From contig VJZX01000001.1 of the NCBI GenBank assembly GCA_009663185.1, forward strand, positions 310,001 to 374,000: DNA of 64,000 nt, read 5' to 3'. Position numbers and translations under genes: made by a program. Positions 47,749 through 63,022 of this stretch are shown one piece after another. Each line of letters opens with the position of its first letter. Position 1 is the stretch's first letter. The notes beneath the pieces were generated by a model. That model saw only the letters and a list, made by a program, of their open reading frames with translations, was not told where the DNA came from and made no database searches. This DNA is from Isoptericola halalbus (GTDB taxonomy: Bacteria > Actinomycetota > Actinomycetes > Actinomycetales > Cellulomonadaceae).

Positions 47749-48737
47749 AGGATCGACGTCTCCCTCGCGTAGCGCCGCTGGACCAGGGTCGCGATGACGA
47801 CGAGGACGAACCCCACGACCGACTGGAACAGCCCGATGGCGGCGGTTGTACCGAAGTCGCCGAACGTGCGCAGCGCACGGAAGACGTACGTGTCGATGAC
47901 GTCCGTCGTCGCGAAGAGCGTCCCGTTGTCGCCGATAATCGCGTAGATGGTGCCGAAGTCGCCGTAGAAGATCCGCCCGACGCCGAGGACGAGCAGGATC
48001 GCGGCGGTCGGCTTGAGCAGCGGGGTGGTGATCCGCAGCGCCATCTGGGCGCGGCTCGCGCCGTCGATGACACCGGCCTCGTAGACCTCCTCGGGGATCG
48101 CCGTGATCGCGGCGAGGAAGATGACGCTCATGTAGCCGCCGAGCTGCCAGACCTTGACGACCGTGAGGATCCACGGCCAGGGGCCGGGCGTGGTGTACCA
48201 GGACGGCTCGGGGAGCGTGAACATGCTGAGGAGGTCGTTGACGAGCCCGCCGCGACCACCCGGTCCGGCCAGGAACGCCTGCAGGAAGATGCTCACGACG
48301 ATGGGCGAGACGAAGTACGGGACGAAGATCACCGACTGGAAGAAGCGCTTCGTCACGCGCCCGCGGATCTCGTTGAGCATCAGCGCGAGCAGGATGCCCG
48401 CGCCGAGCGTCGCCGCCAAGAACAGCACGTTGAGGAACAGCGTGTTCCACATGATGCGGCCGGCGTTGCCGGACGTGAAGAAGAACTCGAAGTTCTCCAG
48501 TCCTGCCCAGGGCGAGCCGAAGACGCCGTCGGCGACGTTGAAGTCCTGGAACGCGACCACGAGCCCGGCCATCGGACCGTAGGCGAAGACGAGCAGCAGG
48601 ACGACGGCCGGTGCGGCGAGGATCACGAGACCGTAGTCACGACCGCGCCAGGTGCGGCGCGATCCCCGGTCCCTGGTCCGACGGGCGGTGTCGGCGGTAG
48701 CAAGGTTCTCGCTCGCGGTGCCGAGATCGGTGGTCAT
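47745..48737 (-). CDS. ABC transporter permease, LplB type
   Basis: A 330-residue permease, first gene of the operon. The coupling loop EAGVIDGASRAQMALRITTP and the N-terminal FAYGPMAGLVVAFQDFNVAD are typical of LplB. It forms the channel with the LplC-type partner. As with the GH42 operon, no ATPase gene is adjacent. Confidence 0.93.
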   Translation of the reverse strand: MTTDLGTASENLATADTARRTRDRGSRRTWRGRDYGLVILAAPAVVLLLVFAYGPMAGLVVAFQDFNVADGVFGSPWAGLENFEFFFTSGNAGRIMWNTLFLNVLFLAATLGAGILLALMLNEIRGRVTKRFFQSVIFVPYFVSPIVVSIFLQAFLAGPGGRGGLVNDLLSMFTLPEPSWYTTPGPWPWILTVVKVWQLGGYMSVIFLAAITAIPEEVYEAGVIDGASRAQMALRITTPLLKPTAAILLVLGVGRIFYGDFGTIYAIIGDNGTLFATTDVIDTYVFRALRTFGDFGTTAAIGLFQSVVGFVLVVIATLVQRRYARETSIL

Positions 48738-49072: not shown

Positions 49073-49885
49073 ATGACCACCCTGCACCTCACGCGCACCG
49101 CCGCGCGCCCGCCGGTGCGAGGCACGATCCTCGCACTTCACGGGATGATGGAGAGCGGGCCGACCCTCGCGTCTGCGACCGACGCATGGGCGGCCGACGG
49201 GTGGTCCGTCGTCGCCCCCGACCTGCGCGGCCACGGACACTCTCCCCGGTGGGACCCCGACGACGCGCTGCACCCGGGCGACCGCCTGACGCAGGACGTC
49301 GTCGAGCTCCTCGACGAGCTGGGTGACGACGCTGTCGCCGCGGGTCCGCTGGTGCTGTTCGGGCACTCCGCCGGCGGGGGCGTCGCCGCGGCGAGTGCGG
49401 CGCTGCGTCCCGACCGGGTCCGCGCCGTCGTGCTCGAGGACCCGTTCTGGCGGCTCCCGATGACCCGTCACCAGGACCGGAGTGTCGCGGAGCAGGCCTA
49501 CTGCGACCTGCTCGACCGGCAGGCCATGGAGCTTCCGGAGCTCGCCGCGTGGGGCGCGTCCGAGCACCCCGGCTGGGATCCCGAGGAGCTCCCGGCCTGG
49601 GCGCAGGCGCAGCACGACGCCGATCCGGCGCTGGTCCGCAACGGCGACGTCATTCCGACGCCGTCGTGGCCGGACCTCCTGTCCGGTCTCGTCCGGGCGG
49701 ACATCGACACCCTGGTCGTCACCGGGACGGCGGCAGGCGTCGGCATGACGCCGGAGCACCGTCGGCTCATCAGTTCCAGCGGTGCTCGCCTCGCCGTCAT
49801 CGACGGCGCCGCCCACTTCGTGCGGCGTGACGCGCCGCAGGAGTTCGTCCGGGTGACATCGACGTTCCTGGCCGAGGTCGCCTGA
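49073..49885 (+). CDS. Alpha/beta hydrolase
   Basis: A 270-residue alpha/beta hydrolase. The nucleophile Ser99 lies in LFGHSAGGG, the oxyanion segment is LALHGMMESG, and APDLRGHGHS is the usual family block. A likely catalytic His is in DGAAHFVRRD near the C-terminus. Substrate unknown. There is no ribosome site before the ATG, consistent with a leaderless mRNA. Confidence 0.85.
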   Translation: MTTLHLTRTAARPPVRGTILALHGMMESGPTLASATDAWAADGWSVVAPDLRGHGHSPRWDPDDALHPGDRLTQDVVELLDELGDDAVAAGPLVLFGHSAGGGVAAASAALRPDRVRAVVLEDPFWRLPMTRHQDRSVAEQAYCDLLDRQAMELPELAAWGASEHPGWDPEELPAWAQAQHDADPALVRNGDVIPTPSWPDLLSGLVRADIDTLVVTGTAAGVGMTPEHRRLISSSGARLAVIDGAAHFVRRDAPQEFVRVTSTFLAEVA

Positions 49886-49902
49886 GCGAGCTTATGGCCC
49901 GG

Positions 49903-49938
49903 CTGGGCGCCCGCGGAGTCGTCGCCGCGGGCGCCCAG
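49903..49938. terminator. Terminator between the hydrolase gene and mrp
   Basis: Arms 49903-49916 and 49925-49938 form a perfect 14-bp GC stem with an 8-base loop between convergent genes. Confidence 0.75.
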
Positions 49939-49967
49939 GCTGGGACAGGACTTGGAACCGGCGACCT
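49939..49967 (-). other. Degenerate tRNA 3'-end fragment, possible attachment-site remnant
   Basis: On the minus strand this begins AGGTCGC and aligns with the variable loop, T-arm and 3' acceptor strand of the initiator tRNA encoded at 63164-63237: 23 of 28 tRNA positions match with one inserted base. It is in the same orientation as the tRNA and lies at the far end of the intervening block. The alignment was done by eye, and chance similarity cannot be excluded. Confidence 0.35.
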
Positions 49968-49978
49968 GGAACCGTTCT

Positions 49979-51157
49979 TCAGCAGGTCGCGCACATGCCC
50001 GACGAGCAGCAGCCCGCGGTGGCCATCGCCATGAGCGGCAGCGAGCGCAGCGGCCTGTCGACCTGGTTCGCGAGCCAGCCGCCGATGGCGCGCAGCGCCT
50101 CCGAGGCTGAGGTCGGCTCGGCGCCCTCGAGCACCACGGGGGCGCCCTGGTCGCCTCCGGTGCCGATCGTCGGCTCGATGGGCACCTGACCGACGAGCGG
50201 AACGACGTAGCCGAGCTCTCGCGTCAGGGTCGCGGCCACCGCTGCGCCTCCACCTTCGCCGAAGGGGGTCCACCGCCGACCATCGGGAAGCTCGGCCCAG
50301 GCCATGTTCTCGATGACCCCGAGAACACGCTGCTTGGTCTCCTTCGCGACGGTGCCGGCTCGCTCCGCGACCTCGGCCGCGGCCAGGTGGGGCGTGGTGA
50401 CGACGAGGTACTCGGCGCGAGGCAGCAGCTGTGCCAGGGAGATGGTGATGTCACCGGTCCCCGGCGGCATGTCGATGAGCAGGACGTCCAGGTCGCCCCA
50501 GTAGACATCGACGAAGAACTGCTGCAGCGCTCGGTGGAGCATCGGCCCGCGCCACATGACCGGCGCGTTCCCCTCGGTGAACATCCCCATCGAGATGACC
50601 TTCACCCCGTGGCCCGTCGGCGGCATCAGCATGCGGTCGACCTGGGTCGGGGCCGTCGTCAGCCCCAGTGCGCGCGGGATGCTGTGGCCGTAGATGTCGG
50701 CGTCGACGACGCCGACGCGCAGTCCGCGCCGGGCGAGCTCAGCGGCGATGTTGGCCGTGACGCTGGACTTGCCCACTCCACCCTTGGCCGAGGCGATGCA
50801 GTACACCTTCGTGGCGGAGTCGGCGGCGGCGAAGGGGACGGTCGGCTCCGCTTGCTCCCCGCGGAGCAGCTGGCGCAGGTCCCCACGCTGCTGCTCCGTC
50901 ATCACGCCGAGCTCGACGTGCACGGCTGCCACGTGCGGGATCTTCTCGACGGCCGATGTCACCTCGCGCGTGATGCGATCCTTCATCGGGCAGCCGGCGA
51001 CGGTGAGGACGACCGTGACAGTGACGTCACCGCCGACGATCGTCACGTCGCGGACCATGCCGAGCTCGGTGATCGGCCGACCGATCTCTGGATCGAGGAC
51101 CGTTGCCAGGGCCGCCTGGACCTCGTCGGCGAGGGGGATCACTTCGGTCATGCTCAT
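49979..51157 (-). CDS. Mrp/NBP35-type P-loop ATPase with cysteine-rich tail
   Basis: A 392-residue protein. The N-terminal MIP18-like (DUF59) domain spans about residues 8-85 with the conserved Cys in TVAGCPMKD. The ATPase domain has the deviant Walker A ASAKGGVGKSS (Lys130) and IDMPPGTGDITI. Mrp proteins carry or transfer Fe-S clusters. The usual internal CxxC after ENM is missing (ENMAWAELPDGRRW). Instead the protein ends in GCCSSGMCATC, four Cys in 11 residues. The ATG at 51157 overlaps the korB stop, so it belongs to the operon and may mature its Fe-S enzymes. Confidence 0.88.
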   Translation of the reverse strand: MSMTEVIPLADEVQAALATVLDPEIGRPITELGMVRDVTIVGGDVTVTVVLTVAGCPMKDRITREVTSAVEKIPHVAAVHVELGVMTEQQRGDLRQLLRGEQAEPTVPFAAADSATKVYCIASAKGGVGKSSVTANIAAELARRGLRVGVVDADIYGHSIPRALGLTTAPTQVDRMLMPPTGHGVKVISMGMFTEGNAPVMWRGPMLHRALQQFFVDVYWGDLDVLLIDMPPGTGDITISLAQLLPRAEYLVVTTPHLAAAEVAERAGTVAKETKQRVLGVIENMAWAELPDGRRWTPFGEGGGAAVAATLTRELGYVVPLVGQVPIEPTIGTGGDQGAPVVLEGAEPTSASEALRAIGGWLANQVDRPLRSLPLMAMATAGCCSSGMCATC

Positions 51158-52266
51158 GCGCTGGCTCCTCGGTGGGTAGGGACGCTCCACACGTCTCCGG
51201 CGAAGATGAGGTCCTCCAGGTCCGGAGGGCTCGCCTCGGCTGCGATCTCGCCCTGCCGGCGGACGTCGTCGTCGTACGCGGGACGCGACACCGCCCGGAA
51301 GACGCCCGTGACGACGTACGACAGGTCCTGGGCAGAGAGCCGTGAGAGGGCGAACGCCGTCGTCGGGTCCGGGTCCGCCGGATCGTGGATCAGCACCTGG
51401 GCGGGGTCTGCCTCGTCCCGGGCGACGACGCGCAGGGTGCCCCCGTCCCGGACGACCAGGTGGGAGTGCCGTCCCTGGTCATCAGGCTCGCCGAGACCGA
51501 GAGGGCTCCCCGCCGCGAGCTTGATGAGGCGCCGTTCGCTCCCGGGCTCCTTCAGGACGTCGAAGGCCCCGTTGTTGAAGATGGGACAGTTCTGATAGAT
51601 CTCGACCAGGGCAGCCCCACGATGCTCCGCTGCTCGGGAAAGCACCTCGGCGAGCCCTTCGCGGTCGGAGTCGAGGGCACGGGCGACGAACGACGCCTCG
51701 GCCCCGAGTGCCAGCGAGACCGGGTTGAAGGGCGCGTCCGGCGCGCCGAGGGGACTCGACTTGGTCACCATTCCCTGGTTGCTGGTCGGCGAGTACTGGC
51801 CCTTGGTGAGGCCGTACACGCGGTTGTTGAAGAGCAGGATGGTGATGTTGACGTTCCTGCGCAGAGCGTGGATCAGGTGGTTGCCACCGATCGAGAGCGC
51901 GTCCCCGTCGCCGGTGATGACCCAGACGGACAGATCGGGGCGGGCGACAGCCAGCCCTGTCGCGATCGCGGGCGCGCGGCCATGGATGGAGTGCATCCCG
52001 TAGGTGTCGAGGTAGTAGGGGAACCGGCTCGAGCACCCGATGCCCGAAACGAAGACCAGGTTCTCCTTCTTCAGGCCGAGAGCCGGCAGCATCGCCTGCA
52101 CCGTGTTGAGGATGATGTAGTCCCCGCAGCCCGGGCACCAGCGCACCTCCTGGTCGGACCGGTAGTCCGCGGGCTTCTGTCCTTGCGGTCCGCGGGGCAC
52201 CATCGCGAGTCCCGAGAGCGGCTGCTGCTCCCCCTCGACCTGGAGCGGTTCGTCGAGCGTGGTCAT
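51154..52266 (-). CDS. korB: 2-oxoacid:ferredoxin oxidoreductase, beta subunit
   Basis: The thiamine-diphosphate-binding subunit of a KorAB-type enzyme that oxidatively decarboxylates a 2-oxoacid to acyl-CoA and reduces ferredoxin, or runs in reverse. The 370-residue protein has the cluster ligands WCPGCGDY (Cys44, Cys47) and Cys in SGIGCSSRFPYY, and the ThDP motif TGDGDALSIGGNH with NNRVYGLTKGQ. Its start overlaps korA (ATGA). The family is usually 2-oxoglutarate-specific in actinobacteria, but the setting here leaves the substrate open. Confidence 0.92.
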   Translation of the reverse strand: MTTLDEPLQVEGEQQPLSGLAMVPRGPQGQKPADYRSDQEVRWCPGCGDYIILNTVQAMLPALGLKKENLVFVSGIGCSSRFPYYLDTYGMHSIHGRAPAIATGLAVARPDLSVWVITGDGDALSIGGNHLIHALRRNVNITILLFNNRVYGLTKGQYSPTSNQGMVTKSSPLGAPDAPFNPVSLALGAEASFVARALDSDREGLAEVLSRAAEHRGAALVEIYQNCPIFNNGAFDVLKEPGSERRLIKLAAGSPLGLGEPDDQGRHSHLVVRDGGTLRVVARDEADPAQVLIHDPADPDPTTAFALSRLSAQDLSYVVTGVFRAVSRPAYDDDVRRQGEIAAEASPPDLEDLIFAGDVWSVPTHRGASA

Positions 52267-54116
52267 GCCGCGACTCCTTCCATGTAGGCGAGGAACGCCG
52301 CCTCCAGGTCGCCCGCCTTGAACGGCTGTCCGGTGACCTGGGTGTGACTGACCAGGTGGGTGGCCCCACGTCCACGGAGCAGGAGCGCCAGCTGGCCGAG
52401 GTTCATCTCGGGGACGATGACGCGCTCGTACCGGGCGAGGACGTCGTCGAGGTTGGCCGGGAACGGGTTGAGGTGCCGCAGGTGGGCGTGGGCGACGGGG
52501 ACTCCCCGCGCGGCCAGTCGACGGCACGCATCCTGGATGGGTCCATAGGTGGAGCCCCAACCGAGGATCAATGTCCGGGTGGTCGCCGGGGAGGGATCGT
52601 GGACGTCGAGATCCGCGACGTCGATGCCGGCGATCTTCTGCTGGCGCAACCGCACCATGAACTCGTGGTTGGCCGGGTCGTACGAGATGGCACCTGTGTC
52701 AGCGGCCTTCTCGAGCCCGCCGATGCGGTGCTCCAGCCCTGGGGTGCCGGGGATCGCCCATGCACGTGCCAGCGTCTCCTGGTCCCGGACGTAAGGCCAG
52801 TGGGTCCCGCTCCCGTCCGCCGCGTTGGGTTCCGTCGAGAAGTCAGGACGGATGTCTGGCAGCTGGTCGATCACCGGGAGTCGCCACGGCTCTGCGCCGT
52901 TGGCGAGGGCTCCGTCGGACAGAAGGAGCACGGGGGTCCGGTAGGTGACGGCGATCCGAACTGCCTCCAGGGCCGCGTCGAAACAGTCCGCCGGCGTGCT
53001 GGGTGCGACGACCGCGACCGGTGACTCGCCGTGCCGCCCGAACATGGCCTGCAGAAGGTCTGCCTGCTCCGTCTTCGTGGGCAGCCCGGTCGAGGGCCCG
53101 CCTCGCTGGACGTCGACGACGAGCAGCGGGAGCTCGGCCATCACCGCCAGACCGATCGTCTCCGACTTGAGGGCGAGACCGGGACCGGAGGTCGTGGTGA
53201 CGCCGAGTGCTCCGCCGAACGAGGCACCGAGGGCAGCACCGACCGCGGAGATCTCGTCCTCGGCCTGGATGGTGAGCACCGGGAAGTTCTTGTGCTTGGC
53301 GAGCTCGTGCAGGATGTCGGAGGCAGGGGTGATCGGGTAGGTACCCAGCACCACCTTCATCCCGGACACCCAGCCCGCAGCGATGATGCCCAGCGCGAGT
53401 GCCGCGTTGCCGCTCACGTGCCGGTATGTCCCCTCGGGAAGGGCCGCGGCAGGCACCTCGTAGCTGACGGCGAACATCTCCGTCGTCTCACCGAAGTTCC
53501 AGCCGGCGCGGAAGGCAAGGATGTTCGCCTGCGCCACCAGCGGCTTCTTCGCGAACTTCTTCCGCAGGTAGTCCTCCACCACCTCGGTCGGCCGCCCGTA
53601 CATCCAGGACAGGAGCCCCAGCGCGAAGAGGTTCCGGCACCGCAGCGCTTCCTTGCGTCCGAGGCCGAGCTCGCTGACAGCCCCCAGGGTCAGGGCGCCC
53701 ATGGTGACCTGATGGACGGTGAGATGGGCAAGGGATCCATCGCTGAGGGGGTCCGACACATACCCGGCCTTGGCGATGTTGCGCTTGGTGAACTCGTCGG
53801 GATCGACGATCACGACACCGCCGACCGAGACGTCGGCGGCATTGGCCCGGAGCGCCGCGGGGTTCATCGCCACGAGCACGTCGGGAGCGTCACCGGGGGT
53901 GAGGATGTCGCTGCTGGCGAAGTGGACCTGGAACGAGGAGACGCCGTGCACGGTGCCCTGCGGCGCCCTGATCTCCGCCGGAAAGTTGGGGAAGGTCGCC
54001 AGGTCGTTGCCGAACGCGGCTGCCTGCCCGGTAAAGCGATCCCCGACGAGCTGCATGCCGTCGCCGGAGTCGCCGGCGAACCGGACGACGACCCGGTCGA
54101 TGCGCTCTGTGTTCAT
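52263..54116 (-). CDS. korA: 2-oxoacid:ferredoxin oxidoreductase, fused gamma-alpha subunit
   Basis: A 617-residue partner of KorB. The N-terminal gamma domain (about 1-190) starts VVRFAGDSGDGMQLVGDRFT. The alpha domain follows with GTYPITPASDILHEL and TTTSGPGLALKSETIGLAVM, then a C-terminal part with LILGWGSTYGPIQDACR and AHAHLRHLNPFP. This is the standard actinobacterial fused layout. It overlaps fdxA and korB by 4 bp on each side. Confidence 0.93.
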   Translation of the reverse strand: MNTERIDRVVVRFAGDSGDGMQLVGDRFTGQAAAFGNDLATFPNFPAEIRAPQGTVHGVSSFQVHFASSDILTPGDAPDVLVAMNPAALRANAADVSVGGVVIVDPDEFTKRNIAKAGYVSDPLSDGSLAHLTVHQVTMGALTLGAVSELGLGRKEALRCRNLFALGLLSWMYGRPTEVVEDYLRKKFAKKPLVAQANILAFRAGWNFGETTEMFAVSYEVPAAALPEGTYRHVSGNAALALGIIAAGWVSGMKVVLGTYPITPASDILHELAKHKNFPVLTIQAEDEISAVGAALGASFGGALGVTTTSGPGLALKSETIGLAVMAELPLLVVDVQRGGPSTGLPTKTEQADLLQAMFGRHGESPVAVVAPSTPADCFDAALEAVRIAVTYRTPVLLLSDGALANGAEPWRLPVIDQLPDIRPDFSTEPNAADGSGTHWPYVRDQETLARAWAIPGTPGLEHRIGGLEKAADTGAISYDPANHEFMVRLRQQKIAGIDVADLDVHDPSPATTRTLILGWGSTYGPIQDACRRLAARGVPVAHAHLRHLNPFPANLDDVLARYERVIVPEMNLGQLALLLRGRGATHLVSHTQVTGQPFKAGDLEAAFLAYMEGVAA

Positions 54117-54451
54117 CGGCCGGGTGTCCCGGCCACGAGGGGGGTGTCCACGCCGATGTCACCGAGGTCCGCGGCCCCACCGGGGTTGCCCACGGGCGCC
54201 GAACGACCGGGCAGCACCTCGGTGAAGAAGCGGGCGTTGTCCTCGACGAAGGCGAGCTCCTCCTCCAGCGCGTCGTCTGCCTGGAAGATCGCCTCGGCCG
54301 GGCAGACGGGTTCGCAGGCACTGCAGTCGATGCACTCGTCAGGGTTGATGTACGCGCTGCGTTCCCCGATGTAGATGCAGTCCACGGGGCACTCGTCGAC
54401 ACAGGCGCGGTCGGTGACGTCGATGCACGGGGCTCCGATGACGTAGGTCAT
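54113..54451 (-). CDS. fdxA: 7Fe-type ferredoxin
   Basis: A 112-residue ferredoxin with Cys9, Cys17, Cys21 and Cys25 (ACVDECPVDC) and the second set Cys40-x2-Cys43-x2-Cys46-x3-Cys50-Pro. This is the arrangement of seven-iron (3Fe-4S plus 4Fe-4S) FdxA proteins, with the usual extended C-terminus. It overlaps korA by 4 bp and is likely the electron partner of KorAB. Confidence 0.93.
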   Translation of the reverse strand: MTYVIGAPCIDVTDRACVDECPVDCIYIGERSAYINPDECIDCSACEPVCPAEAIFQADDALEEELAFVEDNARFFTEVLPGRSAPVGNPGGAADLGDIGVDTPLVAGTPGR

Positions 54452-54470
54452 GTCTCAGTCCTTCAGGTCT

Positions 54471-55253
54471 TCAGTGGGAGGGAAACTGCCCATGGCCGAG
54501 CAGCGCGAGGATCTCCTTGCCCTGCAGCGCGAACTCCGGGTGCAGCTGGGCGTCGGGGTCGCGAGGGCGTGCTACGGCGACGATCCGCGCGACCCGGGCC
54601 GGGCGCGGTGTCAGTACGACGACGCGATCGGCGAGCAGCAGGGCCTCCTCGACGTCGTGCGTCACGAAGAGGACGGTGGTGCGTCGCTGCTGCCAGACCG
54701 AGACCAGCAGCTCCTGCATGTCGAGCCGCGTCTGGGCATCGAGGGCACCGAACGGCTCATCCATGAGCAGCACTCGCGGCTCTGCGGCAAGAGTCCGCGC
54801 GAGCTGGACGCGCTGGCGCATGCCGCCGGAGAGCTGCTTGGGCAGGTGATCGGCGAATGGCGTCAGGCCTACCTGGTCCAGCAGCGCGAGCGCGAGCTGC
54901 TTGCGCTCCCGACGCGGAACCCCTCGCATCGCCAGCGCGAACTCGACGTTCCGGCGGGCCGTGCGCCAAGGCAGCAACGCATCCTCTTGGAACACCATCG
55001 CGCAGTGGGCTTCCGGGCCGTTGTGGACCAGGCCGTCGATCCTCGCGGCGCCTGCTGCGATCGGCTGCAGGCCCGCGAGAGCCCGCAGGATGGTCGACTT
55101 GCCGCAGCCTGAGGGGCCGAGGAGCATGACGATCTCACCGGGGTCGACCTTCAGATCGATCTGCGCGGCGGGCCCGTCTGGGTAGTCGATCCGGATGTTG
55201 TCGAGGTCGACCGGTGCGCCGGCGTCGGTCGTGGCGACTGCCGCGGAGCTCAT
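54471..55253 (-). CDS. Nitrate/sulfonate/taurine-type ABC transporter ATPase
   Basis: A 260-residue ATPase of the SsuB/TauB family. Walker A is GPSGCGKS (46-53), the Q-loop is MVFQEDALLPWRTARRNV, the signature LSGGMRQRVQLARTL, and Walker B VLLMDEPFGALDAQTR. The family-specific LPWR is present. The start overlaps the permease stop (ATGA). Substrate class follows from the whole transporter. Confidence 0.92.
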   Translation of the reverse strand: MSSAAVATTDAGAPVDLDNIRIDYPDGPAAQIDLKVDPGEIVMLLGPSGCGKSTILRALAGLQPIAAGAARIDGLVHNGPEAHCAMVFQEDALLPWRTARRNVEFALAMRGVPRRERKQLALALLDQVGLTPFADHLPKQLSGGMRQRVQLARTLAAEPRVLLMDEPFGALDAQTRLDMQELLVSVWQQRRTTVLFVTHDVEEALLLADRVVVLTPRPARVARIVAVARPRDPDAQLHPEFALQGKEILALLGHGQFPSH

Positions 55254-56116
55254 CGCGCCTCCCCCGGCAGCCAACGGTTCACTCGGCGACCGAGGCGCTC
55301 GATCAGCCAGGATGTCGTGAATCCCATCGCTCCGATGGTCAGCATCCCGGCGACCACGCCCGAGTAGTCGAGCAGCGAGTAGGACATCCAGGTCCAGTAG
55401 CCGACGCCGAACTGGCCGGAGATCATCTCGGCACTGATGACGCAGATCCAGGCCACCCCCATGCTCACCGACAGACCGGAGAAGATCGCCGGCATCGCGC
55501 CAGGCAGCACGATGTGAAAGAGGACCTGCCGCCTTCTCGCGCCAAGAGTCGAGGCTGCATCCATCCAGACCAGGGGCAGCGTCTTCATCGCGTGGATGGT
55601 GGCCACGGTGACCGGGAAGACCGCCGCGAAGAAGGTGATGAAGACGATGCCCTGCTCGCTGGTGGGAAACAGCAGGATCGCGAGGGGGACGAGCGCGATC
55701 GCGGGGATCGGGCGGGCGATCTCGATCAAGGGGCGCAGCAACGCTGCGACGACCTTCGATCGGCCGATCCCGATCCCCACGACGACCCCGACCAGGCTGG
55801 CGAGCGCGAACCCCGACAGGATCCTTCGCAGGCTCGAGACGACATGCTGGCGGAACTCGGCCGTCTCCAGCTGCACCCGCAGCGAGTGGTAGACGTCCAG
55901 TGGTCCGGGGATCTTGTCGAACCGCACCCAGGCGATCACGTCGTACCTGGTCAGCAGGTGCCAGACCAGCACTGCACCGACGATCGGGACGATCGGGAGC
56001 GACCTGGACGCCACCGCGGCCAGTCCGCCGCGCCCGGGCGACGGATGTACTCGCTCGATCGGTGGTGCCTCGGCAACCGGGACAGCGGGAAGTGCCCGCT
56101 CCTGGGTGGTGGTCAT
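55250..56116 (-). CDS. Nitrate/sulfonate/taurine-type ABC transporter permease
   Basis: A 288-residue SsuC/TauC-type permease with six helices and an N-terminal hydrophilic tail. The coupling loop region is DAASTLGARRRQVLFHIVLP. GVAWICVISAEMISGQFGVG is the conserved family block. It overlaps both neighbours by 4 bp (ATGA). Confidence 0.92.
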   Translation of the reverse strand: MTTTQERALPAVPVAEAPPIERVHPSPGRGGLAAVASRSLPIVPIVGAVLVWHLLTRYDVIAWVRFDKIPGPLDVYHSLRVQLETAEFRQHVVSSLRRILSGFALASLVGVVVGIGIGRSKVVAALLRPLIEIARPIPAIALVPLAILLFPTSEQGIVFITFFAAVFPVTVATIHAMKTLPLVWMDAASTLGARRRQVLFHIVLPGAMPAIFSGLSVSMGVAWICVISAEMISGQFGVGYWTWMSYSLLDYSGVVAGMLTIGAMGFTTSWLIERLGRRVNRWLPGEAR

Positions 56117-57531
56117 GGCGCTCGCACGCTCTCGAGGGCTTCGTCGTACCCCAGCACCTCGGCGCCCGCGTGCTCCGCCGCGTAGGCTTCGGCGTCTCCG
56201 ACCGTGGCGAACGGAAGCATCTTCTCCGCCTCGCCGAGGGCCGGATCCACCACCCAGGTGGCGAACTGCCCGAAGATCCGCGTTCCCGACGCCGTGTCGG
56301 GGACGTACAGCGAGCGGTATTCCCCACCCTTGGCGACCAGCATCAGGAGGCACGTGGGCGTAGCTGCGACCTTGGTGGTGGCGCTGCCCGCGGGCCATGC
56401 CTCCGACGCGGTCGCCGCCTCCTCGACCTCACGGTCGCAAACCTCGTCGTGGCCGGTGATCGCGGAAGCATTCACCGTGTCGGCCTGCACCTTCGCGTAG
56501 TCGGCGCCGTAGATCTCCTTGAGCGGACCCTCGTCGACGAATGCGTCGACGTCGAGCTCCTCCAGCGAGCCGAGGTCCTTCAGGAACGGCAGGCCCTGCT
56601 TGACGGCGTCGACCAGCTGCGGCTTGATCGTCAGGTCGAAGGTGACTGCACCGTTGGGGCCGTTGTAGAGGTAGACGAGCTCGGGAGGCAGCCCGGTCGC
56701 GGCGGCGACCTTCTCCGCGGCCTCGAGGGGATGCTCTTGCAGGTACTCGGTCGCCTCCTTCTGTGCCGCGAGGAATGCCGTCATGACCTCGGGGTTCTCC
56801 TCGATGTACTTCTCGTTCGCCACCACCCCGTGGAACGTGGGGGTTCCGGTCTTGCCGTTGTGCAGGAGCCTCCCGGTGCCCTCGAAGACCGCCTTCTGCG
56901 GGAACGGGACGAACTGCGCCAGCGCGGCAACCTGCTTCGACTCCAGCGAGGTCATGCCCACGGGCGGGTCCTGGCCGAGGATGTCGATGTCACCGGGCGA
57001 CATGCCGGCGCCGTCGAGAGCCCGGACGAGGTTGCCGTGCGCGGTCGAACCGAGACTCGTCGAGACGACCTGGCCATCCAGGTCGTTGAGCGTGGTTGCC
57101 GTGGAGTCCGTCGGGACCACGATCTGGTTGAGCGCGCCGTCCAGGTTGTAGCCGGTGACACTGACCCACCGGGTCTTGGCGGCTCCGAGCGTCGCCGACT
57201 TGGCCCCGTTGACGGACAACGGGTAGTCGCCCATGGAGCCGATGTCGACCTTCTCGGCGATCATCTCGGCAGTGAGCGGAGGTCCCGAGGCGAAGTCGTG
57301 CCAGCTGATCTCGTAGGCCTTCCCGGACTTCTGCGCTGCCTCGTCCAGATGCTTCTCGAGCAGCCCCAGCTCGCGCATCAGCGTGCCGGCCGTGACGGTG
57401 TTGATGGTCTTGGACTGGTATCCGACGGCGACCGCGACGGTGTCATCCGCGGCAGCGCCAGCACAACCGGCAAGGGCGCTGCCTGTCAGGACAAGCACGG
57501 CGGTACCGGCCGCCATCCTGGTGATCTTCAC
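56113..57531 (-). CDS. SsuA/NrtA-type substrate-binding lipoprotein with C-terminal NosL-like extension
   Basis: A 472-residue lipoprotein (LAGC, Cys23). Residues 30-350 form a binding protein of the nitrate/sulfonate/taurine family (SKTINTVTAGTLMRELGLLE, IGSMGDYPLSVNGAKS, VVSTSLGSTAHGN). From about residue 364 a further ~109 residues follow, with two Cys (Cys365, Cys394) and the segment GDAEAYAAEHAGAEVLGYDE. This resembles the C-terminus of NosL-type copper-chaperone-like proteins. Normal SsuA/TauA proteins are about 320 residues, so the extension is extra. The gene is 10 bp after the small ferredoxin. Confidence 0.82.
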   Translation of the reverse strand: MKITRMAAGTAVLVLTGSALAGCAGAAADDTVAVAVGYQSKTINTVTAGTLMRELGLLEKHLDEAAQKSGKAYEISWHDFASGPPLTAEMIAEKVDIGSMGDYPLSVNGAKSATLGAAKTRWVSVTGYNLDGALNQIVVPTDSTATTLNDLDGQVVSTSLGSTAHGNLVRALDGAGMSPGDIDILGQDPPVGMTSLESKQVAALAQFVPFPQKAVFEGTGRLLHNGKTGTPTFHGVVANEKYIEENPEVMTAFLAAQKEATEYLQEHPLEAAEKVAAATGLPPELVYLYNGPNGAVTFDLTIKPQLVDAVKQGLPFLKDLGSLEELDVDAFVDEGPLKEIYGADYAKVQADTVNASAITGHDEVCDREVEEAATASEAWPAGSATTKVAATPTCLLMLVAKGGEYRSLYVPDTASGTRIFGQFATWVVDPALGEAEKMLPFATVGDAEAYAAEHAGAEVLGYDEALESVRAP

Positions 57532-57541
57532 GGTCGTCTCC

Positions 57542-57769
57542 TCAGCGCAGCAGGTACGGGATGTTGACGGTCACGGCGTCGACGGGGCAGCGGGCGGCGC
57601 AGGGGCCGCAGTACCAGCACTCGTCGACGTGCATGTAGGCCTTGCCCGAGTCGGGGTTGATCGCCAGCGAGTCCAGCGGGCACATGTCGACGCAGAGGGT
57701 GCATCCATCGATGCACTTCTCCTCGTCGATCACGACCGGGACGTCGGAGCGGGATGTTGCTTGAGCCAT
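57542..57769 (-). CDS. Two-cluster 4Fe-4S ferredoxin, AprB-like partner
   Basis: A 75-residue ferredoxin. The first cluster set is Cys19-x3-Cys23-x2-Cys26-x3-Cys30-Pro (CIDGCTLCVDMCP), one residue longer than the usual CxxC start. The second is Cys51-x2-Cys54-x2-Cys57-x3-Cys61-Pro (CWYCGPCAARCP). Together with the flavoprotein two genes upstream it recalls the AprA/AprB pair of APS reductase. It likely carries electrons to or from that flavoprotein. Confidence 0.9.
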   Translation of the reverse strand: MAQATSRSDVPVVIDEEKCIDGCTLCVDMCPLDSLAINPDSGKAYMHVDECWYCGPCAARCPVDAVTVNIPYLLR

Positions 57770-57781
57770 GGACGGGTCCTC

Positions 57782-58699
57782 TCAAGAAGGGAAGTCGGCT
57801 TCGGATTCCAGGGCGATGCGGGCGAAGGCACGGACGTCGGCGTCCGCATCTCCTTGGGCGCGAAGCAGTGCCTCGCGCACGTCTGGGTTCTGGGCCAGAC
57901 GCGGCGTCAAGGCCTTGACGGCGGCCTTGCGGACGTCCAGGTTCTGATCAGCGGCAGCGACGATGAGCGGTTCGACGGCACCTTCAGCTCTCGACTCGAT
58001 AAGGGCGGTAGCGGCCGCCTGTCGTACTTCCCAGGCGGTGTCCGCCAGACCGGCGACGGCAAGCCCGGCGGCGTCGTCGGTGCACCCGGTCCCGCTGAGT
58101 GCGTTCAGGGCTGCAGCACGAACAAGGTGATCGCTGTCGTCGTGCATGCCGACGAGCGTGGCGATCCCCCGAGGGTCACCGACCGCTCCGATTCCGCGGG
58201 CCGCAGCGATCCGGATCCGGGGTTCGGTATCCCGCGCTGCGACAGCGAGGCCGTCGAGGTCGTCCAGGGAGACGAGACCCAGGACGACCTCGCGGCGGAC
58301 ACGTGGGTCCGGGTCGGACAGGCAACGCAGGAGATCGGCGGTCGACGTGAGCCGGTGGCGCCACAGTGCGCCGATCGCGGCGCACCGTATCCCTGCGTCA
58401 TCACTGCTCGTCGCGACCTGCAGGTGCTCCACGAACTCCGGGCCTGGCTGGAGCACCTCACGCAGCTCACGGAGCAGGTCGGCCGCGCGCTGGCGTACCG
58501 CGTCGTCCGGGTCGGTCAGGGCGGCCGCGAAATATGGTGTGGCCTCCTCCCAGTCATCTCCTGCCTCGCTGAGAACCGTGAGCGCGGTTCGGCGGACCTC
58601 GGGATCGTCGCTCCTGAGATAGGGCTCCAGCTCCTCCGCGGACGGGGCCTCGTCGACCAGCTCGAGCAGGGCGAGGATGCGCGCGTTCGGGGCGCTCAT
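57782..58699 (-). CDS. HEAT-repeat protein
   Basis: A 305-residue all-helical protein made of about nine HEAT/PBS-lyase-like repeats of ~31 residues, visible as recurring DPDDAVRQRAADLL, DPDPRVRREVVLGL, AWEVRQAAATAL and NLDVRKAAVKAL. It has no enzyme motif. ATG at 58699 overlaps the flavoprotein stop (ATGA) and has GGAGG 7 bp upstream. HEAT proteins are scaffolds or assembly factors. Its position between flavoprotein and ferredoxin genes suggests it joins or matures them. Confidence 0.88.
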   Translation of the reverse strand: MSAPNARILALLELVDEAPSAEELEPYLRSDDPEVRRTALTVLSEAGDDWEEATPYFAAALTDPDDAVRQRAADLLRELREVLQPGPEFVEHLQVATSSDDAGIRCAAIGALWRHRLTSTADLLRCLSDPDPRVRREVVLGLVSLDDLDGLAVAARDTEPRIRIAAARGIGAVGDPRGIATLVGMHDDSDHLVRAAALNALSGTGCTDDAAGLAVAGLADTAWEVRQAAATALIESRAEGAVEPLIVAAADQNLDVRKAAVKALTPRLAQNPDVREALLRAQGDADADVRAFARIALESEADFPS

Positions 58700-60465
58700 C
58701 GCCATGCCTCCGCCAGCTCGACTCCCTGCGGGGCGAGCTCGTCCGGAACACCGTCGGGTCGCACGAACCCCGGCACAGGCACGATGTAGGGGGCCACGGG
58801 TCGCCGCTCGAACTTCATCCCTCCAGTCGCGGCGTCCTTGCTGAGGTTGAGGTGGCAGAACCAGCTCGCGTCGTCCTGCTGGGGGATGTCGTTGCGGGCG
58901 TGGTAGAGCCCCCACCGGCTCTCGGTGCGCTCGAGGGAGGACCGCGCCGCCATCTCCGCGCAGTCCCGGATGAAGCTGACCTCGGCGCAACGCATCAGCT
59001 CATGGGGCGTGCGGGCGCCCATCTGAGCGATGTCGATGCGCATGCGCTCAAACGCCTCGATGCCCAGGGAGAGGTAGCGCTCCGTCTTGGGAGGCTGCAG
59101 GTAGTCGTTGACGAAGCGGCGCAGCTTGTACTCGACCTGGGGCTGCGGCGGACCGTCCGGGTTGGATGCCGGCCGGTAGATCAGCTCGTGCGCGGCCTCG
59201 ATCTGATCCTCAGGCAGTCCCGGGCGGGAGGCCGACCTGGCGAAGATCGCCGCGTCCTCGCCGGCGATGTCGCCGTACACGAAGGCGCCGATCATGTAGT
59301 TGTGCGGGACCAGTGCCATGTCGCCCGCGGCGTACAGGCCCGGGACCGTGGTCCTGGCGTGCTCGTCCACCCAGACGCCAGACGCGGAGTGGCCGCTGCA
59401 CAGCCCGATCTCCGAGATGTGCATCTCGATGTCACGATCCCGGTAGTTCGTTCCCCGGCCCTCGTGGAACGTCCCGCGCGTGGGGCGCTCGGTGGTGTGG
59501 AGGATGCCCTCGATCTCACTGATCGTCGCGTCCGGAAGGTGGCTCAGCTTCAGGTAGATGGGTCCACGCGAGCTCTCCAGCTCCCGTTTGACCTCCGCCA
59601 TCATCTGCCCGGACCAGTAGTCGCAGTCGACGAAGCGGTTGCCTTCGCCGTTGACCTGGTAGCCGCCGAACGGGTTGGCCACGTAAGCGCAGGCCGGGCC
59701 GTTGTAGTCCTTGATCAGCGGGTTGATCTGGAAGCACTCGATGCCCGACAGCTCCGCGCCGGCGTGGTAGGCCATCGCGTAGCCGTCACCAGCGTTCGTG
59801 GGGTTCTCGTACGTCCCGTAGAGGTATCCGCTGGCCGGCAGGCCCAGCCGACCGGCCGCACCGGCGGCGAGGATCACCGCCCCGGCTGACACCGTCACGA
59901 ACTCGCCGGTGCGGGTGTCGAAGCCGACGGCACCGACCGCCCGCCCGTCCACCGTGAGAACCCGAACCGGCATGAGCCGGTTGGTCATCGTGACGTTGGA
60001 ACGCACGTTGCGCGACCGGAGCTCGCGGTAGAGGACCTTCTTGACCTCCTTGCCCTCGGGCATCGGGAGGACGTAGCTGCCGGAGCGGTGCACCTTGCGG
60101 ACGGCGTACTCGTCGTGCTCGTCCTTCTCGAACTTGACCCCGTAGGACTCCAGGCGCTGCACCATCTCGAAGCCTCGGGTCGCGGTCTGGTAGATGGTGC
60201 GCTGGTTCACGATGCCGTCGTTCGCGACGGTGATGTCGGCGACGTAGTCCTCGGGGGTCGCCTTGCCGGGGACGACGGCGTTGTTGACGCCGTCCATACC
60301 CATCGCCAGGGCGCCCGAGTGGCGGACGTGCGCCTTCTCCATGATCAGGACGGAGGCCCCGTTTCTGGCCGCCGTCAGTGCGGCCATCGTGCCCGCCGTG
60401 CCGCCGCCTACGACGAGGACGTCACATTCGATGTGACGCCGGTCGGTTACTTCGGGAATCTGCAT
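58696..60465 (-). CDS. AprA/fumarate reductase-like FAD flavoprotein
   Basis: A 589-residue flavoprotein of the succinate dehydrogenase/fumarate reductase/APS reductase alpha family. The FAD motif is VVGGGTAGTMAAL (18-30). HSGALAMGMDGVNNAV and the FAD-anchoring VPGLYAAGDMAL are present, and the late helical domain has SRWGLYHARNDIPQQDD. No membrane anchor or FrdB-type protein is encoded nearby. The small ferredoxin is the likely partner. Resemblance to AprA suggests sulfur chemistry, but the active-site substrate ligands cannot be assigned here. It starts 3 bp after the GntR gene. Confidence 0.85.
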   Translation of the reverse strand: MQIPEVTDRRHIECDVLVVGGGTAGTMAALTAARNGASVLIMEKAHVRHSGALAMGMDGVNNAVVPGKATPEDYVADITVANDGIVNQRTIYQTATRGFEMVQRLESYGVKFEKDEHDEYAVRKVHRSGSYVLPMPEGKEVKKVLYRELRSRNVRSNVTMTNRLMPVRVLTVDGRAVGAVGFDTRTGEFVTVSAGAVILAAGAAGRLGLPASGYLYGTYENPTNAGDGYAMAYHAGAELSGIECFQINPLIKDYNGPACAYVANPFGGYQVNGEGNRFVDCDYWSGQMMAEVKRELESSRGPIYLKLSHLPDATISEIEGILHTTERPTRGTFHEGRGTNYRDRDIEMHISEIGLCSGHSASGVWVDEHARTTVPGLYAAGDMALVPHNYMIGAFVYGDIAGEDAAIFARSASRPGLPEDQIEAAHELIYRPASNPDGPPQPQVEYKLRRFVNDYLQPPKTERYLSLGIEAFERMRIDIAQMGARTPHELMRCAEVSFIRDCAEMAARSSLERTESRWGLYHARNDIPQQDDASWFCHLNLSKDAATGGMKFERRPVAPYIVPVPGFVRPDGVPDELAPQGVELAEAWR

Positions 60466-60468
60466 GGC

Positions 60469-61260
60469 CTAGTCGCTTTCTGTGTCGCGCAGGGACGTGA
60501 AGGGGTTGGCGAGAGGGGTGCGCTCAAGCCAGCTGGCCAGGGTCATCCGGTCGCCCCGGTAGCGCAGGAACTCGAGGTCGACGGGCCGGCCACCGTCGGC
60601 GTGTGTCAGCCGCTCCACGAACAGCAACGGCGACCCGGGGCGGATGCGGAGCATCCCTGCGACCACACGGTCGGCGACCATGGCCTCGATCCGCAGCCGT
60701 GCGGCACCGAGCGGCAGGCCGAGCTCGGACTCGATGAGCTCGAAGATGTCGTGGTTCTCGAGGTCGAGCTCGAGCAGCGGCTCGCCGATGTCGGCCGGGA
60801 AGTAGCTGGCGTCGAGGGTCACCGGCTCGCCGTCGAAGGAGCGGACACGCTCCAGGCAGAGGACTGGAGAACCTGCTTCGAGCTGGAGCCGCTCGGCGAC
60901 CAGGGGCACGGCTGGCAGGATCTCGGCCAGGACGACGTCGTTGGTGACGCGGGGATGTCGCGACTCGAAGGTCTCCGCGAGGCCTCGAAGCCGGTCGAGG
61001 CCATGGACGAGCTTTCCGGCGACCACGAAGGTGCCAGAACCCTGGATGCGGGTGATCAGGCCTTCGTCCCGCAGGAGCGAGAGAACCTCGCGGATGATGT
61101 TGCGGCTGGCGCCGAACTCCAGGGCCAGGGCGGTCTCCGGTGGAAGTGGCTCGCGCCCGTAGACGCCCTCGAGGATGCGCGTCCGGAGTACGTCACGGAT
61201 CCGGCGGACAGGCCCGGAACGCCGCCCTGCGGGCACCGGGTCATCCGTTGTCGGCTTCAT
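60469..61260 (-). CDS. GntR/UTRA-family regulator, first gene of the redox operon
   Basis: A 263-residue regulator. The winged HTH reads RTRILEGVYGREPLPPETAL then EFGASRNIIREVLSLLRDEG with RIQGSGTFV. A UTRA ligand domain follows (VLCLERVRSFDGEPVTLDAS, LFVERLTHADGGRPVDLEFL). It is 3 bp from the flavoprotein gene and heads an eleven-gene run, so it probably controls it. Three phased GTTAC repeats lie upstream (61283-61320). Confidence 0.9.
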   Translation of the reverse strand: MKPTTDDPVPAGRRSGPVRRIRDVLRTRILEGVYGREPLPPETALALEFGASRNIIREVLSLLRDEGLITRIQGSGTFVVAGKLVHGLDRLRGLAETFESRHPRVTNDVVLAEILPAVPLVAERLQLEAGSPVLCLERVRSFDGEPVTLDASYFPADIGEPLLELDLENHDIFELIESELGLPLGAARLRIEAMVADRVVAGMLRIRPGSPLLFVERLTHADGGRPVDLEFLRYRGDRMTLASWLERTPLANPFTSLRDTESD

Positions 61261-61282
61261 GCGAGGACTCTCGGGGGCGCGG

Positions 61283-61320
61283 GTTACGTGCCATAGCGAC
61301 TCCAGTTACCCGAGAGTTAC
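61283..61320. promoter_or_regulatory. Three helically phased GTTAC repeats
   Basis: GTTAC occurs at 61283-61287, 61305-61309 and 61316-61320, in the same orientation and 22 and 11 bp apart, so on one face of the helix. They lie 23-60 bp upstream of the minus-strand GntR start. They are candidate binding sites for one of the two GntR proteins. Confidence 0.45.
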
Positions 61321-61550
61321 GCCTGCCCCACGTGACCGGACTGTCCGCTGACCTCGGGAAACACGGAGATGCGTGATGATCCGCCGGAAAGAGGCGGGGA
61401 TCCGCCGGGCAGATCGCGACCGCGCGTACCACGTCGGAAGCAAGCGACCGCGGTCACAACGCCGCAGGGTGGCCAGCACCGCCGCCCCGCAGAGACTGCG
61501 ATTCCGTCGCTGAGCCCGGTCGGAGTCACCGTGGTGCACAGTCATTATGT

Positions 61551-61559
61551 TGTTATACT
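61551..61559 (+). promoter_or_regulatory. Extended -10 promoter for a leaderless transcript
   Basis: TG-T-TATACT (61551-61559) is an extended -10 with a perfect TG motif and TATACT. The GTG start codon at 61566 is 7 bp downstream of its last base, where transcription should begin. No good -35 is seen. The surrounding ATTATGTTGTTATACTAAT is unusually AT-rich for this genome. Confidence 0.6.
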
Positions 61560-61565
61560 AATCGC

Positions 61566-62297
61566 GTGTCGAAACAACCCCTCTACGCCCAGATCGAAGA
61601 CGCGCTGCTGGCCAGGATCACCACCGGACTCGCTCCGGGAGACCGGCTGCCGACCGAGGACCAGCTGATCGAGGAATTCGGCGCGAGTCGCATCACAGTC
61701 CGGCGCGCCGTTCAGAACCTTGTGGCCCGAGGTGTCGTCGTGACTCAGCAGGGACGGGGCACCTTCGTCGCCGAGCGGCAGCTCGAGCAGCCCCTGACCG
61801 CACTCACCGGGTTCGTCGAGGACATGGAGGCCCTGGGCCTCGGAGCCTCCGCGGAGCTGATCACCGCCGAGACCGTGCCGGCCTCCCCTGCCGTCGCCGC
61901 CCGGCTCGACCTGCTGACGGGATCGCCGGTCGACTTCATCGAACGAGTGCGGCTGGCTGAAGGACGACCGGTCTCGTTCGACCAGACCTGGCTTCCCGGC
62001 GGAGTCGCCGAGGGGATGGTTCGCGAAGACCTCGCGAACCAGCCGATCTTCACCCTGCTCGAAGAGAAGTACGGCATCCCGCTGCGCGAGGCGACCTACC
62101 GCCTGCGTGCGACCAGCGCCGCCGAGCACGTCGCTGAACACCTGCGGGTCGCCCCCGGAGAGCCCATCCTGCTGGTCGAGCGCACCACGTTCACGACCGG
62201 TCAGAAGCCCATCGACTACGAGCTCCTGCACTATCGGGGCGACGCCATCACGTTCGTGACGAGCCTGAGCCGCCCCGCGGCCGGGACACACAGGTGA
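61566..62297 (+). CDS. GntR/UTRA-family regulator upstream of a TauE exporter
   Basis: A 243-residue GntR protein with HTH (GDRLPTEDQLIEEFGASRIT, VVTQQGRGTFVAE) and UTRA domain (PVDFIERVRLAEGRPVSFDQ, ILLVERTTFTTGQKPIDYEL). GTG at 61566 lies immediately after the -10, so the mRNA is probably leaderless. Its stop overlaps the TauE start (GTGA). It is divergent from the redox operon's own GntR. Confidence 0.9.
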   Translation: MSKQPLYAQIEDALLARITTGLAPGDRLPTEDQLIEEFGASRITVRRAVQNLVARGVVVTQQGRGTFVAERQLEQPLTALTGFVEDMEALGLGASAELITAETVPASPAVAARLDLLTGSPVDFIERVRLAEGRPVSFDQTWLPGGVAEGMVREDLANQPIFTLLEEKYGIPLREATYRLRATSAAEHVAEHLRVAPGEPILLVERTTFTTGQKPIDYELLHYRGDAITFVTSLSRPAAGTHR

Positions 62298-63022
62298 CCG
62301 AGGCTGCTGGCCTGGCGGCTGTGTGCCTCGCCGTGACGCTCGGGGCTACCGCCCAACGGATCACCGGCATCGGGATCGCCCTGGTGAGCGCACCGGCCCT
62401 CGTGCTGATGTTCGGCCCGCTGACCGCGGTGCCCCTGTGCAACCTGATGGCCCTGCTGCTGAACATAGGGATTCTGCTGACTTCCCTCGGCAGGATCGAG
62501 TGGCGACGGGCAGCCACCATGGCAGCCGGGTCGGCGGTCGTCATCCTGGCCCTCTCCCCACTCGTACAGCGGGCGGATCAAGCGATTCTGCAGGCCACCA
62601 TCGGCGTCGCGGTGCTCAGCGCCATCGCGCTGACCTTCTGGCTGAGAACCCGGAGCAGGCCGTCAGATGATTCGATGCTGGCGCGGGTGTTCGCCGGTGC
62701 GAGCGCCGGAGGCCTCGGCGCCGCCGCAGGCCTGAGCGGTCCACCGCTGGCGATCTACGCGGTGCGCACCGGCTGGGCCGGGCCGACCTTCGTCCCGACG
62801 CTCCAAGGCGTCGCGGCCGTCATCAACGTCCTTGCCGTGGCAGCGGCTCCACGGATCTCCATCCCGCCCCTGACGTGGGCCGTGCTCATTGGGGCGCTGG
62901 GAGCGGGCGCGGCCGCAGGCGCCCTTCTCGCGCCTCGAGCCGACGCCCGCTGGATCCAGACGGCGGCGCTCGCGCTCGCTGCTGTCGGGGCGATCGTCAC
63001 CATCGTCGTGGCACTGACATGA
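62294..63022 (+). CDS. TauE/SafE family membrane exporter
   Basis: A 242-residue membrane protein with about eight helices. The family features are an N-terminal ATAQRITGIGIALVSAPALV and a second-half GLGAAAGLSGPPLAIYAVRT, reflecting the internal duplication of TauE/SafE. Characterised members export sulfite, sulfoacetate or other organic anions. Its place next to an SsuABC-like importer and AprA-like flavoprotein supports export of an acidic, possibly sulfur-containing, by-product. The GTG start overlaps the GntR stop. Confidence 0.87.
   Translation: MTEAAGLAAVCLAVTLGATAQRITGIGIALVSAPALVLMFGPLTAVPLCNLMALLLNIGILLTSLGRIEWRRAATMAAGSAVVILALSPLVQRADQAILQATIGVAVLSAIALTFWLRTRSRPSDDSMLARVFAGASAGGLGAAAGLSGPPLAIYAVRTGWAGPTFVPTLQGVAAVINVLAVAAAPRISIPPLTWAVLIGALGAGAAAGALLAPRADARWIQTAALALAAVGAIVTIVVALT

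Follow-up and report, generated by a model that had tools for sequence, protein, structure and literature searches.

The sequence examined here (the window) is a 64,000-nucleotide stretch of contig VJZX01000001.1 of Isoptericola halalbus, and within 61260-49979 it carries eleven co-directional open reading frames (ORFs) on the minus strand (Table 1). From 5′ to 3′, these encode a GntR/UTRA regulator, a flavoprotein, a HEAT-repeat protein, a two-cluster ferredoxin, the substrate-binding protein (SBP), permease and ATPase of an ATP-binding cassette (ABC) importer, the ferredoxin FdxA, the 2-oxoacid:ferredoxin oxidoreductase subunits KorA and KorB, and Mrp. Recomputed intergenic gaps are 3, -4, 12, 10, -4, -4, 19, -4, -4, and -4 bp; the gene set and gaps given in a preliminary description of the locus were thereby confirmed, and a compact operon is supported as far as sequence can indicate. 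A consensus scan of 49500-62400 identified no terminator-like sites and a single promoter-like site at 61572-61544, upstream of the regulator, which is weak evidence given that 0.6 such sites are expected by chance. The same gene order is found in other genomes, and the arrangement is therefore more than chance. With slightly better than even confidence, we read the locus as a variant of a widespread import-and-redox module, spread by horizontal transfer and equipped with its own power supply, in which an imported compound would be reduced with electrons fed by KorAB or, in relatives, by an FprA-like reductase.

Table 1. Features at the locus, with window positions.
Feature	Coordinates	Strand	Length and evidence
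GntR/UTRA regulator, operon gene 1	60469..61260	-	263 aa; Pfam UTRA 122.9 bits, GntR 55.9 bits
AprA/PAPS-reductase-alpha-like FAD flavoprotein, proposed catalytic subunit	58696..60465	-	589 aa; FAD_binding_2 126.3 bits; Succ_DH_flav_C
HEAT-repeat protein, separate gene	57782..58699	-	305 aa; HEAT_2 131.4 bits
Two-[4Fe-4S] ferredoxin, proposed AprB-like small subunit	57542..57769	-	75 aa; Fer4_7 40.8 bits
Lipoprotein SBP, NMT1/SsuA-TauA-type domain plus C-terminal domain of ~110 residues	56113..57531	-	472 aa; lipobox judged by eye
ABC permease	55250..56116	-	BPD_transp_1 85.7 bits; best NCBIfam NtrB, TauC, SaoP, all below cut-off
ABC ATPase	54471..55253	-	ABC_tran 108.9 bits; best NCBIfam taurine ATPase 236.5, below cut-off 357
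FdxA-type ferredoxin, proposed carrier from KorAB to small ferredoxin	54113..54451	-	NCBIfam FdxA_Actino 145.9 bits, cut-off 125
KorA, 2-oxoacid:ferredoxin oxidoreductase alpha	52263..54116	-	617 aa; TIGR03710 633.1 bits, cut-off 482.75
KorB, beta subunit	51154..52266	-	370 aa; TPP_enzyme_C 110.4 bits; TIGR02177 248.9, slightly below cut-off 261.9
Mrp/ApbC-type P-loop ATPase, Cys-rich tail	49979..51157	-	392 aa; PF10609 258.8, PF01883 72.9 bits
Second, divergent GntR/UTRA regulator	61566..62297	+	Pfam UTRA 130.5 bits
TauE/SafE-family transporter	62294..63022	+	PF01925 53.8 bits, cut-off 32.6

The flavoprotein exceeds the cut-off of the NCBIfam model PRK08275 (889.4 bits, cut-off 587) and falls slightly below that of PRK13800 (1189.8 bits, cut-off 1196). 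Both models bear the name "fumarate reductase/succinate dehydrogenase flavoprotein subunit," which is an annotation, and PRK13800 covers a fused flavoprotein-HEAT form. An identity as the flavoprotein of succinate dehydrogenase or fumarate reductase was rejected, with scores of 142.1 bits against a cut-off of 567.3 for TIGR01812 and 120.3 against 727.35 for TIGR01816. The curated aprA model was not reached by the flavoprotein (149.9 bits, cut-off 641.75), nor was PRK06854 (269 bits, cut-off 557). The nearest solved structure is the alpha subunit of 8a8o, a 3′-phosphoadenosine 5′-phosphosulfate (PAPS) reductase from Methanothermococcus (191.1 bits, residues 9-554). An AlphaFold2 model of the flavoprotein was discarded for its low predicted local distance difference test (pLDDT) scores (mean 58.7, with residues 202-308 and other stretches below 50). 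Aligned sequences (21, from three phyla) share 195 invariant columns. The substrate site of AprA, the alpha subunit of adenosine 5′-phosphosulfate (APS) reductase, includes Asn74, Trp234, Arg265, and His398 (Archaeoglobus fulgidus numbering), and the flavoprotein retains Asn61 and His359 at the equivalents of Asn74 and His398, both invariant in the 21 sequences. The His398 equivalence was drawn through the PAPS reductase alignment.

The small ferredoxin matches the beta subunits 8a8o_C, 3gyx_B, and 1jnr_B, though less well than polyferredoxins, and its eight cysteines and Trp52 are invariant among 19 sequences. Trp52 falls at beta residue 42-43, a placement inferred from alignment ends only (14-68 on 5-58); an electron-transfer role has been proposed for Trp42 of the M. 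thermolithotrophicus PAPS reductase beta subunit (PMC10322725). The HEAT protein aligns to residues 608-896 of the 898-residue PRK13800 model, and HEAT is fused to the flavoprotein in most actinobacterial copies (70 of 77 complete ORFs are at least 836 residues long), which fits a stable association of the two proteins. Like the M. thermolithotrophicus PAPS reductase, the module pairs a flavin adenine dinucleotide (FAD)-containing alpha subunit with a two-cluster ferredoxin and retains the G-H motif histidine as well as the residue equivalent to Asn74; unlike it, the module has an importer, HEAT, and Mrp, and the window operon lacks an ATP sulfurylase or APS kinase gene. AprAB has the same fold class and a similar subunit pair (the aprB model is weakly matched, at 30.8 bits), but the small subunit here has 75 residues, against 150 and 166 in the chains it was compared with, and the flavoprotein scores far below the aprA cut-off. 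The window also differs from the fused form covered by PRK13800 in that HEAT is a separate gene and KorAB, FdxA, and Mrp are encoded downstream. The earlier proposal that the flavoprotein is AprA-like and has a two-cluster ferredoxin of its own is supported, and the pair looks like an AprAB-type enzyme with an altered substrate site.

The core module is widespread. Full-length flavoprotein matches of at least 76% identity numbered 27 in 246 genomes of the class, and matches were found in two of 221 genomes of the window's family, in one of 22 genomes of the family of genome G209, in 138 of 391 genomes of the Streptomyces-type order (E<=1e-250), and in 35 of 397 of the Mycobacteriales-type order (E<=1e-300), both order labels being inferred for coded genomes; from a collection of named genomes, the best 80 loci were used. 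A plasmid collection yielded 51 flavoprotein records, from which 13 were picked for variety, one actinobacterial (Tsukamurella) and 12 from Proteobacteria or Cyanobacteria (a search of the same collection with FdxA returned 226 records, was too unspecific, and was not used). All 12 non-actinobacterial records have annotated ferredoxin and HEAT genes, and 11 have an SBP-permease-ATPase set within 8 kb (Nostoc has only binding proteins). Mrp is annotated in three of the 12 and a DUF971/GBBH-like gene in six, while KorAB is annotated in none, although the gene tables are incomplete and such absences soft. The expectation that a flavoprotein-ferredoxin-HEAT-SsuABC core recurs elsewhere was therefore borne out in Proteobacteria and Cyanobacteria, without KorAB. 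In Actinobacteria, two types are found, the common fused flavoprotein-HEAT form and a long type; no KorA, KorB, or Mrp match was found in 24 class and 73 named loci of the fused type, some of them incomplete. A full-text literature search, outside which most subscription papers lie, returned no entry describing the module, and the passages found in PMC7661421 and PMC13352529 do not mention its genes. Divergent to the flavoprotein in Leptolyngbya lies a LysR regulator that carries a fused NMT1/SsuA-like domain (L048:9307-11343) and may thereby respond directly to the imported compound; the annotation of Pseudanabaena includes a LysR gene of similar length. Locus L076 (G129) holds flavoprotein and HEAT fragments with no matches to the rest of the module and is apparently a decayed copy.

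Long-type operons, defined by a flavoprotein at least 83% identical to that of the window (15 loci collected), run GntR, flavoprotein, HEAT, ferredoxin, SBP, permease, ATPase, FdxA, a variable slot, and Mrp. All 15 have FdxA and a GntR/UTRA match upstream of the flavoprotein, in divergent orientation in L051. The slot holds KorAB, followed by Mrp, in ten of the 15 (the window, Promicromonospora panici, Glycomyces sp. YM15, G209, two named Streptomyces, and four coded Streptomyces-type genomes), and the gene set thus recurs beyond the window. In three others (Nocardia vaccinii, N. salmonicida, and G1026), FdxA is followed instead by a gene for an FprA-like NADPH:ferredoxin reductase. The N. vaccinii protein has full-length similarity to FprA (1lqt_A, 298.9 bits over 6-466 of 467). 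Identity to the N. vaccinii gene is 78% for that of G1026 and 81% over 80 residues of the incomplete N. salmonicida gene. Mrp follows the FprA-like gene in N. vaccinii and G1026, and the N. salmonicida contig ends inside that gene. On the flavoprotein tree, two changes suffice to explain the slot states of the 15 loci, and the window, Promicromonospora, and Glycomyces form the sister group of the FprA carriers (support 93/87, below the starred level). KorAB and FprA both reduce ferredoxin, and the simplest reading is therefore that the slot holds the module's electron supply.

Among individual loci, a gene matching AhpC/TSA below threshold (scanned in L180 only) lies after FdxA and before KorAB in G518, with a 45-50% relative after FdxA in Pseudonocardia dioxanivorans; the two genes are at L180:10564-11256 and L081:16531-17343. 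G528 and G518 each hold a second flavoprotein copy (76-77% identity). Long-type and fused-type copies lie near each other on N. salmonicida contig NZ_BDBR01000003.1 (L080, L126). The KorA and SBP matches of G209 (L050) are each split over two frames, which points to frameshifts or errors of assembly in this genome.

The window KorA resembles known KorAB enzymes, with 6n2n as its nearest solved relative (268.7 bits), a score above the TIGR03710 cut-off, a separate KorB, and an adjacent ferredoxin; unlike these, the window KorAB sits in a substrate-specific operon and is exchanged for FprA in relatives. It is the only KorA match in its own genome. Within the window's family, a close KorA (94-100%) occurs in the same two of 221 genomes that carry the flavoprotein, and in three further genomes (L258, L259, L260) the only KorA relative is a distant one (37-38% identity). 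No KorA at E<=1e-50 was found in 17 genomes of the same genus, two of which are less than 90% complete. The two carriers belong to two genera and their flavoproteins are 97% identical, a distribution that fits horizontal transfer. Outside the family, all 12 genomes examined have KorA outside the operon. Four Streptomyces-type long-type genomes carry both core and operon KorA, in separate clades, and G209 also has copies of both. The E1 component of 2-oxoglutarate dehydrogenase (PF16870) was found in 13 of 13 genomes tested, including that of the window. Judging from its relatives, the natural 2-oxoacid of KorAB is probably 2-oxoglutarate. On two Streptomyces plasmids (L256, L257), KorAB is encoded after a 2OG-Fe dioxygenase gene, next to a polyketide-type cluster, and may thus serve as a portable part elsewhere as well.

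Mrp is associated with the flavoprotein module and not with KorAB in particular, although P. dioxanivorans, which shows neither KorAB nor Mrp, counts against this. The preliminary description had placed Mrp in a unit with KorAB, and that grouping was not supported: Mrp stays without KorAB in G085 and with FprA in N. vaccinii and G1026, while nine of the 12 non-actinobacterial records, none with an annotated KorAB, have Mrp or DUF971 alongside the core. A second Mrp copy, 61% identical, is encoded elsewhere in the window genome. Of 13 operon Mrps compared, only that of P. panici has the Cys-rich tail of the window Mrp (49979-50017). A CXXC motif is absent from its usual place in the actinobacterial operon Mrps and in the canonical copy, and present in the three cyanobacterial module Mrps.

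The SBP gave a confident AlphaFold2 model (mean pLDDT 92.0), for which Foldseek ranks 1-8 are all SsuA/TauA entries (E 1.3e-20 to 2.0e-16, 17-24% identity), the best being SsuA 3ksx and TauA 6ssy. The proposal of SsuABC-like uptake is thus upheld as regards a sulfonate-type importer fold, and the imported compound is likely a sulfonate or sulfur oxyanion. The importer shares binding-protein fold and transporter class with SsuABC and TauABC but differs from them in that all three parts score below curated sulfonate/taurine cut-offs, the SBP has an extra C-terminal domain, and the operon encodes no SsuD/TauD monooxygenase. The extra domain carries a faint NosL signal (16.7 bits, below the Pfam cut-off of 24; E<=0.1 in seven of 40 members). 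A general copper-chaperone role for this tail was rejected because its cysteines are absent from aligned proteobacterial and cyanobacterial members. A full-text search for NosL with sulfonate transport returned no entry describing the module. ORF clustering across 87 actinobacterial loci gave 19 clusters spanning at least three genera, and a Pfam scan of four of these identified a LysR regulator, two luciferase-like monooxygenases, and one FAD monooxygenase. TauE and the divergent GntR regulator were each found in three of the 15 long-type operons (the window, L078, and L079), and several stretches are short upstream; export by TauE/SafE, earlier suggested as a linked function, is accordingly no fixed part of the system.

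In the mechanism we propose, the SsuABC-type importer would bring in a small anion, most likely a sulfonate or other sulfur oxyanion. The flavoprotein and small ferredoxin would form an enzyme like AprAB or PAPS reductase, with FAD, two [4Fe-4S] clusters, and a conserved Trp relay. KorAB would oxidize a cellular 2-oxoacid (probably 2-oxoglutarate) with coenzyme A and reduce FdxA, NADPH taking over that reduction in the FprA variant, and electrons would pass from FdxA to the small ferredoxin, to FAD, and to the imported compound. HEAT would stay stably bound to the flavoprotein, and Mrp may help load the iron-sulfur clusters of the module. Sulfite, if it is the product, could be assimilated or exported. 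Reduction of the imported compound is the most likely reaction. A more specific version, which we offer tentatively and hold to be rather unlikely as a whole, is a so far unrecognized, oxygen-independent way of using organosulfur compounds in aerobes: an AprAB-derived enzyme would reductively free sulfite or, where the import is an S-sulfonate such as thiosulfate, both sulfide and sulfite. Such a reaction would need low-potential electrons, and hence in some lineages the donor, KorAB with 2-oxoglutarate or FprA with NADPH, would be encoded in the operon.

Several observations weigh against this account. Nothing in the sequence data fixes the direction of electron flow. AprA Arg265 and Trp234 are replaced by Leu250 and Tyr219, both invariant among the 21 flavoproteins and a further difference from PAPS reductase, so the substrate or the chemistry should differ from that of APS. 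For the small ferredoxin, polyferredoxins outscore AprB, with a profile search ranking polyferredoxins first and 3gyx_B seventh. KorAB cases come from few lineages (six of the ten are Streptomyces-type), and the KorA tree neither shows nor rejects a single origin of the operon KorAs (approximately unbiased (AU) test, p 0.41). Two long-type operons have neither KorAB nor FprA: in G085, FdxA directly adjoins Mrp, and in P. dioxanivorans, FdxA is followed by a weakly AhpC-like gene and then by a transposase-like ORF (by eye), with no Mrp match in the long-type stretch. The SBP scores below the cut-off of the SsuA_fam model TIGR01728 (124.9 bits, cut-off 163.5). Sulfur-type neighbors were not shown to be enriched in Actinobacteria, which counts against a firm sulfur assignment: TauE occurs near two of 87 flavoprotein loci and in none of 40 controls, and luciferase-like monooxygenases near nine of 87 (three genera) and in one of 40, where the controls were fixed-position 20-kb regions from eleven flavoprotein-carrying genomes, one seed was drawn from the target loci, and a good many target loci do not reach 20 kb.

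That the same machinery imports and reduces a phosphonate, a carboxylate, or another non-sulfur anion is a substantial possibility, though clearly below an even chance. The SBP superfamily also takes other small anions and ligands (Phosphonate-bd was matched in 37 of 40 members, and bicarbonate, pyrimidine, and pyrroloquinoline quinone (PQQ) proteins are among the fold matches), both GntR/UTRA regulators score near the PhnF and HutC models (below cut-offs), and the loss of Arg265 and Trp234 points the same way. However, SsuA and TauA are the best SBP fold matches, PAPS and APS reductases are nearest to the flavoprotein among solved structures, and exporters or sulfur genes lie near several non-actinobacterial copies. 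TauE/SafE is annotated near four of these, a TSUP-family transporter near the Acinetobacter copy, and YeiH or sulfate-exporter-family genes near two cyanobacterial copies; tau/ssu genes lie near the Mesorhizobium copy, the Cupriavidus copy has an ssu-like set and an NtaA/DmoA monooxygenase in its vicinity, and the Nostoc copy has metX together with an acetylhomoserine enzyme.

The role of KorAB can be read otherwise than as an electron supply. In the carbon flow first proposed for the locus, the flavoprotein oxidizes or reduces the import, whose carbon ends up in a 2-oxoacid that is then cleaved by KorAB. We regard this as improbable. KorAB is co-encoded and moves with the module, and G1026, of the FprA type, has a KorA elsewhere that could serve the cleavage step, but FprA, which handles no carbon, holds the same place in three operons, the fused-type and non-actinobacterial loci lack nearby KorAB as far as their records extend, and the operon has no enzyme linking the carbon skeleton of a sulfonate to a 2-oxoacid. 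The carbon step is unneeded and fits the FprA swap less well than electron supply does. Slightly less probable again is an oxidative direction, in which the flavoprotein oxidizes the import and reduces FdxA, FprA makes NADPH, and KorAB runs in the carboxylating sense. The FprA and KorAB reactions are reversible in principle, but in aerobic actinobacteria both enzymes usually reduce ferredoxin, and reductive carboxylation by KorAB would be unusual where 2-oxoglutarate dehydrogenase is present. Dissimilatory APS reductases are likewise reversible, but the reverse reaction of the nearest solved relative, the M. thermolithotrophicus PAPS reductase, could not be measured, according to its report (PMC10322725). 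A chance joining of housekeeping KorAB-FdxA-Mrp to the module, named beforehand as the outcome that would undo the link, is very improbable: KorAB is a common core enzyme outside the window's family (12 of 12 genomes) and also stands beside unrelated genes on Streptomyces plasmids, but it keeps its place in ten of 15 operons, close KorA occurs in the family only in the two operon carriers and at E<=1e-50 in no same-genus genome, the four Streptomyces-type genomes and G209 keep both core and operon copies, and the window genome has its own 2-oxoglutarate dehydrogenase, so that KorAB here is not the core tricarboxylic acid (TCA) cycle enzyme joined by accident.

Because FprA naturally takes the place of KorAB in some relatives, the donor and the direction of electron flow, usually hard to guess from sequence, can be approached directly. 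Were the substrate a sulfonate, a reductive flavo-iron-sulfur enzyme would join the known desulfonating enzymes, and KorAB would have a dedicated role outside the TCA cycle in an organism with 2-oxoglutarate dehydrogenase. The highly conserved flavoprotein of this widespread module is annotated as a fumarate reductase/succinate dehydrogenase subunit, yet fails the curated models of that family. Downstream of the operon, 42986-48737 encodes a sugar-type ABC importer (a DUF3502 binding protein and, by eye, two permeases); a 2-hydroxyacid dehydrogenase lies nearby, as does a regulator that looks LacI-like by eye.

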